Shown piece after piece: positions 3,355-6,300 of a stretch of 64,000 nucleotides of DNA. The position numbers and the translations under genes were made by a program. The first letter of the stretch is position 1; each line of letters begins with the position of its first letter. The DNA is taken from contig OZ014411.1 of NCBI GenBank assembly GCA_963965975.1, positions 10,045,501 to 10,109,500 on the forward strand, in the 5' to 3' direction. A model generated the notes under the pieces. It did not search any database. It was given only the letters and a program-made list of their open reading frames with translations, and was not told the DNA's origin. The stretch is from Xestospongia bergquistia (Eukaryota > Porifera > Demospongiae > Haplosclerida > Petrosiidae).

Positions 3355-6300
3355 TTACTGTGCTAATGCACTTATTAATCTTGAGCAAGCCTCAAAAAAT
3401 TCCATAGTACAATGTCTTTGAAGTGTATTATTATCAGTTGGTTCATCTGATGTATCATCAAGAGGATCAACAGCCTATAAAAAACAATGATACTAATAAC
3501 TTGATGTACTATAGCACAGATTACAGTGTATATAGCTATTATTTAACCCTTTATTTCCCCTACATATCTGGATGTATTTACCTTGAAGTCGAGGAGAAAG
3601 TTGCGTTGGTCAAGTTGATAAAGTTGTAAGTCTAATTTCACTTCCACTTCTCCTCCAGGAGGTTTATATCGACAACGAATGAAAAAAGGACTAACATTTT
3701 TCCACTCAAAGTCCAACATTTTAAGTTTCTTCATGATTTCCTATCAATAAAGTATTGTTTAATTCTGTTTACAACTTGAGAAATAATTGTAACATACTGT
3801 TATGATGCCTCCGTTACTAAACACATGATAAAAAATTATGGCCATTTATTGTAGGATGTGCAATGAGAGAATTATAAAGCAAATTCTATAACAGATAGCT
3901 ATCAACACATGTACGTGTATTTGGGTGTAAATAACTAGTCTTGTACTACCTTAAATTTTGTAGAAGACAGTTATCATGTTTATTAACAGTAACACATAAT
4001 AAATGTACAATTATTTTTAACCCTATAATACATTATATTGTATACCTGCATTATGTTCTGTGGATGTGACTGTGACCGTATGCCAAGATGCCATTTAGGT
4101 CTTTTGTAAGAACGTGGTAGCTTTATAGGGATATCTGATTCACCAACAGGTGATCGAGATGTCTGCTTTGGGAAACTACCTATAAAGATAAACCAAACAT
4201 ATCACTAATGGTTAGAATACAATGGAACATTATCAAAAGAATACTATATATCTTACATAGCTAATGATGTTTGTGCTCTTCAGTATTGATAAAGAGACAA
4301 ATGTTTTCTTTTACAATTTTAAATACATTCTGTATTGCCTACCATTTTTTCCTGGAGATGTAGGTTGATTAATGTCCTTACTCTCAGATAGAGTCAATGT
4401 TTCTCCCATAATAAAAGATGAGGAAGGTGGACTTGTCGCATAGACATCTTCACTTGGTTTATCAAGTGACTCAGTTTGTGATAGTAGCACTCTATAAAAG
4501 GAGTATAATTTAGTATAATGTAGTATAGGAATTAACATAATTATAGATATAATGAATGCCAATTATCTTAACAGGTGACCAATTTCTTGTTATCTCATAT
4601 GTTGTAATACAATACAACCTAACCTTAGACCTGTTATCTAATACTATGATATTCCTACAAACTACATATACATCTGTTATCCTAAACATAGATATTTATC
4701 ATATACCTGTTATCCTGTACTAATTCATATATCATATACCTGTTGTCTTGTACTAATTCATATATCATATACCTGTTATCCTGTACTAATTCATATATCA
4801 TATATCTGTTATCCTGTACTAATTCATATATCATATACCTGTTATCCTGTACTAATTCATATGCTACAGCTAAATGATGTCCTCTATCTCCACTTCTGAT
4901 AGCTGCTATGACTTCACTAGAAGTGACTGATAATTTCTGACATACTTCAGCTAATACAGCTGAATCAATCTGGTGTGTATCATGTCGACCTGTCATGAAA
5001 TACAGATATACTTACAGTTAGTTTAATTGTTAAGTATAAACAAAACATTTAAAATATAATTATGTATGATATAGTAAGGTATGACTCAGTGTATTTAGCA
5101 TAAACCAATAATATGATAGTAGGTATACTATATAAATTTGATATTTATAAGTAAACGTGTTGTTATGTATACCTGGTAATGGAAATAGGTATTGTGGTAA
5201 GTCAGTATTAAACCATGTGTGTTCTCTGATTTGTTGAATAGTAATCCTTCGAACTGGATTGACCTGAAAACATTAATAATATAGATAATTATAGTATGAA
5301 AAAATGTAATTAGTTTTACCTGTAAGCATAATTACATTGTATCATGTAGTAAAACCTACATGTACATGTACATGTACAAGGTTTGTTGTAATTCTAGTTC
5401 TAATTCTACTTGTAATTATTTGTAGCTCTATTTGTAATTGTAACATATTAATTGTAATTCTAATGGAAATTGTAAAGTTATTGTTAACTTTAATTAAAAA
5501 CATTGTAAACAAGTTGTCAGATAAAGACTTTTTAGTCAAGCAGATAAAATCTTGAACCCAAAAAGGAGTTTGTTTCTTATATGAAAACTATAAAGATTAC
5601 TTGTTTTTAAAAATAACTCATGTGAATTTAAAGACCTAATTAACTACTGAATTGAATTGATAGACTTTTAACTAATTCATATTATAATTATTAGATACAT
5701 AATATTATTGTAATGTACTTGTAACATTTGTGACAATAGATCAGATGCTCCTTTACTGAGATGAGGTGGAAGATAGAATTGACCAGACTTAATTTTACGA
5801 AACAACATTGAGATACTGGCATCTTCAAAAGGTAGTGTACCACACAATAAAGCATACAAAATAATACCACAACTCCATACATCAACTTCAGGACCTAGAA
5901 GTTAAAAAAATGCATTAGCAAAGTACACTTTAATGATTGACAATCCTTTACTAAGACTAATGAAATATACAAGTATTGAACTATTGAACTATAGTAATTA
6001 TAATATTTATTGTACTACTTACCAGCATAGAGTTTTCCTGATACAACTTCTGGAGCAGCATAGTTTGGACTGCCACAACTTGTTCTTAAAAATTCACCAT
6101 CTTTCATTAAGTTAGAGAGACCAAAATCAGCAATCTTTACCTATTATGTTATAAGATTAATTCTACATATATTAGTTAAAGTATTGTTCAGAGTACTATA
6201 TAGGATATGTTGCATGAGAGGTGTGGTTGAGATGTTCATACAGCATGAAGCAAAACTAAGTGTGCTATGAGCAATGAGACCACACATTGAGTGCTACATA

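Follow-up and report, generated by a model that had tools for sequence, protein, structure and literature searches.

The closest described counterparts of the locus reported here are found in fission yeast, where, according to the excerpts considered here, genes contain 24-nt repeats that carry splice-site cores, and the introns gained are themselves copies of the repeat (PMC3629103; cited in PMC4974935). The repeat core is given as AGGC in PMC3629103 versus AGGT in PMC4974935, and for the in vivo intron of SPOG_01682 the excerpted part of PMC3629103 states that further study is needed. The tandem array at the exon 9/intron 9 border of a sponge AMPK alpha gene is like the fission yeast repeats, as far as these excerpts describe them, in having a period divisible by three, splice-site cores and introns made of repeat copies; in both cases the copies are unequal, which argues against assembly error. 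The fission yeast repeats created a new intron inside an exon, whereas the AMPK array multiplies an existing donor and leaves the acceptor outside; exon extension would be the outcome. With this acceptor (exon 10 starts at 4491) outside the array, the locus does not conform to intron gain by tandem duplication as in the Rogers model.

A tandem duplication in potato RdRp likewise crosses an intron-exon boundary; unlike the AMPK array, it lies, in the section of PMC4974935 that deals with it, on the acceptor side of the intron and gave rise to a new intron. DOK7 intron 4, as described in part of PMC5585400, resembles the present case in offering competing nearby donors of one exon, but these are two unlike, frame-shifting donors 11 nt apart, in contrast to the four identical in-phase donors of AMPK. 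At MIR137HG, the length of a VNTR correlates with 5' splice site use; in the excerpted account (PMC6692358) the donors lie beside the repeat and in a non-coding RNA, whereas those of AMPK are inside the repeat. Judged from the DNA alone, the AMPK array appears to resemble clustered alternative 5' splice sites, and no equal case of a tandem array of in-frame donors was found in the literature searched, a collection with few of the subscription journals.

The window (the whole 64,000-nt stretch of Xestospongia bergquistia DNA that was analysed) carries on its minus strand, at 8983-3355, a complete AMPK alpha coding gene, which is modelled with 13 exons and 518 codons plus a stop, an open frame throughout and GT-AG ends on all 12 introns (107-999 nt). 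The best PDB matches of its product are AMPK alpha-2/alpha-1 (E 2.8e-181, residues 8-503), and three Pfam models match above their cut-offs, namely PF00069 Pkinase (3.4e-81), PF21147 AMPK_alpha_AID (7.3e-13) and PF16579 AdenylateSensor (3.1e-14). With the kinase, the autoinhibitory domain (AID) and the C-terminal adenylate-sensor domain all found, we assign the gene to the AMPK catalytic subunit alpha; the first-pass annotation had named the same gene, and its numbering of exon 9 agrees with the 13-exon model. Exon 9 (4839-4989, minus strand) encodes the AID and is followed by intron 9, 347 nt long when counted from the first donor (4492-4838), and by exon 10 (4343-4491), where the linker that follows the domain begins. 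The AID match covers residues 289-333 of the product and positions 1-45 of the 46 in the Pfam model, and exon 9 terminates inside codon 332 with two bases of an Arg codon. The candidate insertion point thus falls, as annotated before, within the last residues of the AID. When spliced at 4839, the product aligns with mammalian AMPK alpha-2 in the PDB alignment with no insertion at the exon 9 end and therefore represents the conserved form; a 6-residue difference from AMPK alpha-2 occurs six residues later, within exon 10.

The gene was found once in the assembly (146.46 Mb in 21 contigs; GC 32% in a 200-kb sample). A search with the AID model matched the AMPK alpha locus alone, and the C-terminal 236 residues of the protein gave five matches, all of them exons of this locus. 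A 110-base query spanning the exon 9-10 junction gave four matches, which are exon 9, exon 10 and two array copies, and no paralogue or processed copy revealing this junction was found in the genome.

Tandem Repeats Finder (TRF) places the array at 4697-4862 (period 33, 5.0 copies, 95% matches, score 311; 166 bp), and its head-to-tail copies, above chance, make it a minisatellite, or tandem repeat. Of the bounds given earlier, 4697 and 4865, the lower one holds, and the upper one reaches three to four bases beyond the last matching base. The unit spans the exon 9/intron 9 border, and five copies, all on the minus strand, cover 4861-4697. Copy 1 (4829-4861) contains the exon end and the first intron bases, with its donor GT at 4838-4837 and the last exon base at 4839. 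Copies 3 (4763-4795) and 5 (4697-4729) are identical to it over all 33 bases, and their donors follow 4773 and 4707, respectively. Copy 4 (4730-4762), with its donor after 4740, differs at two bases (CAG GAT to CAA GAC), and copy 2 (4796-4828) at one, a change of AGG to AGA that would be synonymous if exonic and that replaces the donor GT after 4806 by AT. In the exon 9 frame all five copies encode the same 11 residues. These details uphold what had been reported from the first reading: an in-frame unit of 33 bp, repeated five times, that includes the last codons of exon 9 with their donor and retains a GT in the same phase in four of the copies.

The 33 bases beyond the array (4664-4696) are read here as a decayed sixth copy, although the alignments differ in the support they give this reading: 19 of 33 positions match the unit in register, a figure equalled or exceeded by one of 2000 dinucleotide shuffles, whereas local alignment of the unit to the remainder of the intron (4696-4493) matches the same bases with a 2-base insertion and a score equalled or exceeded by 20 of 500 shuffles. 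This stretch is without a donor in register and contains an in-frame TAG, so read-through beyond the last donor would meet a stop. A seventh decayed copy near 4646 was considered and set aside, as its match is weak (36 of 500 shuffles equal or exceed its score).

Miscounts usually fall in tandem arrays, and an assembly artefact or a wrong copy number has to be weighed here on that account. We consider it very improbable, since 166 bp is short compared with a long read, the copies bear distinct differences and the array is followed by the putative decayed sixth copy. The existence of the in-frame donor array, as read from the assembled sequence, is nearly certain. A 23-base core of the unit, written as a pattern with two degenerate positions, occurs without mismatch in at least five places in the 146-Mb genome, and those five are the array copies; with two mismatches there are at least five further places, one on contig C2 and four on C9. 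These were considered as possible AMPK copies and rejected: no AMPK sequence was recognised in the two of the five places that were inspected, and searches with the C-terminal part of the AMPK protein and the AID domain gave no match on C2 or C9. In the two inspected places (L006 and L007, 1501-1523) the sequence surrounding the match is similar, and both appear to belong to a single family of non-AMPK sequence.

The four usable donors are identical over nine positions. Relative to 4839 they lie at offsets of 66, 99 and 132 nt, successive sites being spaced by 66, 33 and 33 nt and all in the same phase, and the arithmetic of 22, 33 or 44 added residues given by the first-pass annotation is correct. 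The introns they would leave, 347, 281, 248 and 215 nt, are within the range of this gene. Each site scores 9.58 bits, third among the 12 donors of the gene in a leave-one-out ranking; the matrix was built from the other 11 donors of AMPK alpha and is a small sample, but the tie among the array donors is independent of it because the sites are identical. Among the 31 GT sites in 4989-4500, the array donors outscore the other 27, the best of which reaches 6.86 bits. At the level of sequence the alternative donors are therefore equally strong, and more than one donor sequence lies in the right place and phase for an alternative 5' splice site (A5SS) exon. With a period that is a multiple of three and no stop in the unit, each of the four can connect to exon 10 in frame. 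An RNA hairpin over the array that might mask donors was tried and dropped (z = 0.63; 147 of 200 shuffles fold at least equally well).

In classic work on duplicated donors, the site nearest the intron is reportedly favoured when equal donors are well separated, and use is reportedly mixed when the spacing is short. For competing 5' splice sites, strength, distance and SRSF1 binding are named as determinants in the excerpted text of PMC5585400. On these two grounds we infer that mixed donor use is to be expected.

The sequence shows that 33 bp lying across the exon 9/intron 9 border, from the 3' end of the exon into the first intron bases, have been duplicated in tandem several times, leaving four identical 5' splice sites in the same phase. 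The spliceosome most likely uses more than one of them, and the outcome would be a mixture of AMPK alpha forms lengthened by 0, 22, 33 or 44 residues where the AID ends, in which the additional 11-residue repeats are predicted to lengthen the last helix of the domain before the nucleotide-sensing linker. Such an array could be tolerated because the leak is in frame, and an evolved role is not needed to account for it. An exon-edge minisatellite with leaky in-frame donor use, giving the +0, +22, +33 and +44 isoforms and probably lacking an evolved role, is the reading we favour, with somewhat better than even confidence; that several of the array donors are used is, by itself, somewhat more likely than not. 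The conserved AMPK form requires just the first donor, which counts against leaky use.

The main alternative, to which we give appreciably less credence, is that the array is a silent intronic minisatellite: 4839 would be the sole donor used, for instance because it is transcribed first or because of enhancers in exon 9, and copies 2-5 would be spliced out and carry no meaning. The product of 4839 aligns with mammalian AMPK alpha without an insertion there, and such arrays are common here; the AMPK alpha gene itself has another one close to the acceptor of exon 4. What this alternative has to contend with is that the other three donors equal the first over nine positions, that little within the unit could tell the copies apart (copies 3 and 5 match copy 1 throughout and copy 4 departs from it at only two bases), and that all the differences between copies are synonymous.

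These differences, three of three synonymous, set against the stop in the copy beyond the last donor, were counted in favour of leaky use. The chance that three events would all be synonymous is 0.0035, 0.0068 and 0.0117 at transition/transversion rate ratios of 1, 2 and 4 under one-base mutation models, or 0.028 with all three taken as transitions; counted as two events the values become 0.023, 0.036 and 0.052 at the same ratios, and the test rests on n = 3 substitutions, two of them in copy 4 and possibly one event. The pattern hints at translation of the copies, the events being too few to rest on. The open frame of the array is less surprising in view of the 8 codons, out of 11 in the unit, that were copied from exon 9; 45% of 20,000 random 33-mers drawn from the window are open when read in a given frame. 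By chance one period in three is divisible by three, and 4 of the 12 TRF rows in the 200-kb sample have such a period.

An AlphaFold prediction of exon 9 plus the array from a single sequence gave helices at 9-19, 23-32 and 35-96, the third of which extends from the domain through the copies; pLDDT averages 77-88 in ten-residue blocks across the array (residues 51-97). Confidence in this low-information model, made without an alignment, is limited: the mean pLDDT of the five models is 75.3, 72.1 (both fair), 40.6, 39.9 and 37.9 (all poor). With a helical rise of 1.5 angstrom per residue, an 11-residue step corresponds to about 16 angstrom if helical. In the excerpted structural reports, the AID is described in kinase-bound and regulatory-fragment-bound states, and directly after it comes the alpha-linker, largely disordered, two motifs of which contact gamma (PMC4827068, PMC3905731). 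An insert at the AID end could alter how the nucleotide state of gamma is transferred to the domain; alternatively, it could be absorbed by the flexible linker.

A more ambitious proposal would make the array a selected repeat-length switch, in which AMPK is tuned through the length of the autoinhibitory helix, itself determined by donor choice and copy number. The array sits at the AID end, its in-frame 11-residue unit is predicted to continue the last AID helix, its differences are synonymous only, and the excerpted structures put the site after the AID and before the linker that senses the nucleotide state on gamma (PMC4827068, PMC3905731). The youth of the copies and the codons inherited from the exon, however, account for much of this pattern, and the unit does not behave as a designed amphipathic helix, since shuffling the unit gives an amphipathic moment at least as large in 51% of 20,000 trials. 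We regard a selected switch as unlikely, and an evolved regulatory role of the array in any form as no likelier. The idea that the array could yield a repeat-length-dependent protein variant, raised in the first-pass annotation, is kept here as a hypothesis suggested by the sequence. Its strongest form would have a length-polymorphic donor array produce an isoform ladder in which the autoinhibitory helix grows by 11 residues at a time; nucleotide sensing would then be coupled less tightly to autoinhibition, and the energy-stress threshold of the animal would be set by the donor chosen or the length of the allele. This we hold to be more doubtful still.

Tandem arrays are frequent in this genome. 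In the window, TRF finds 20 merged arrays of period at least 10, covering 3.9%, seven of them at least 100 bp long. In the 200-kb sample (twenty 10-kb stretches from three of the 21 contigs, unannotated), ten arrays make up 1.4% of the bases under criteria stricter than those behind the 3.9% (period 20-120, at least three copies, at least 80% matches), compared with six arrays and 1.9% in the window under the same settings. Given this frequency, mutation alone should place an array across a splice site somewhere in the genome, and in a gene intolerant of frameshifts the in-frame splice-site arrays would be those that survive. When the 12 TRF rows of the sample were checked for donor-bearing arrays, one (54 bp, L032) was open in a frame with AGGTR; it was rejected as a donor-bearing exon array, as it looks like low-complexity sequence with no sign of a gene. 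The second array of the AMPK alpha gene, at 6985-7117, has a 27-bp unit in 4.1 copies with 97% matches (TRF row 6985-7096); its low end is situated 26 bases upstream of where exon 4 begins (6958), and it may repeat acceptor-side signals.

Should more than one donor be in use, the locus would be a natural duplicated-donor experiment, in which a gene found a single time in the genome carries a run of four identical 5' splice sites; position effects in donor choice could be read directly from RNA, and exon growth in whole 11-residue steps through minisatellite expansion would be demonstrated. If the first donor alone is used, it would show how strongly an upstream donor excludes identical rivals 66-132 nt downstream. 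Either splicing outcome provides a small, clean test; a still speculative effect on AMPK itself would carry greater weight.

Elsewhere in the window, plus-strand ORFs at 9944-11166, adjoining the AMPK gene and divergent from it, match the Pfam model IMS (Y-family DNA polymerase), the second of them below the cut-off, and a long minus-strand ORF at 15100-17236 has a sub-threshold match to Roc (22 bits versus a cut-off of 27). The region 44263-49939 contains direct repeats at a distance of 5,045-5,046 bases, with identities of 100% over 300 nt, 99% over 101 nt and 96% over 179 nt; the ORFs that they flank match DUF1759, with aspartyl protease and integrase zinc-binding models below their cut-offs, and the whole looks like a recent LTR retroelement. 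A second integrase-like region lies at 55599-57833, with an Integrase_H2C2 match (E 1.9e-9) in the ORF at 55599-56018, after which a 51-bp repeat at 57602-57699 is part of an open frame containing proline- and glutamine-rich repeats.
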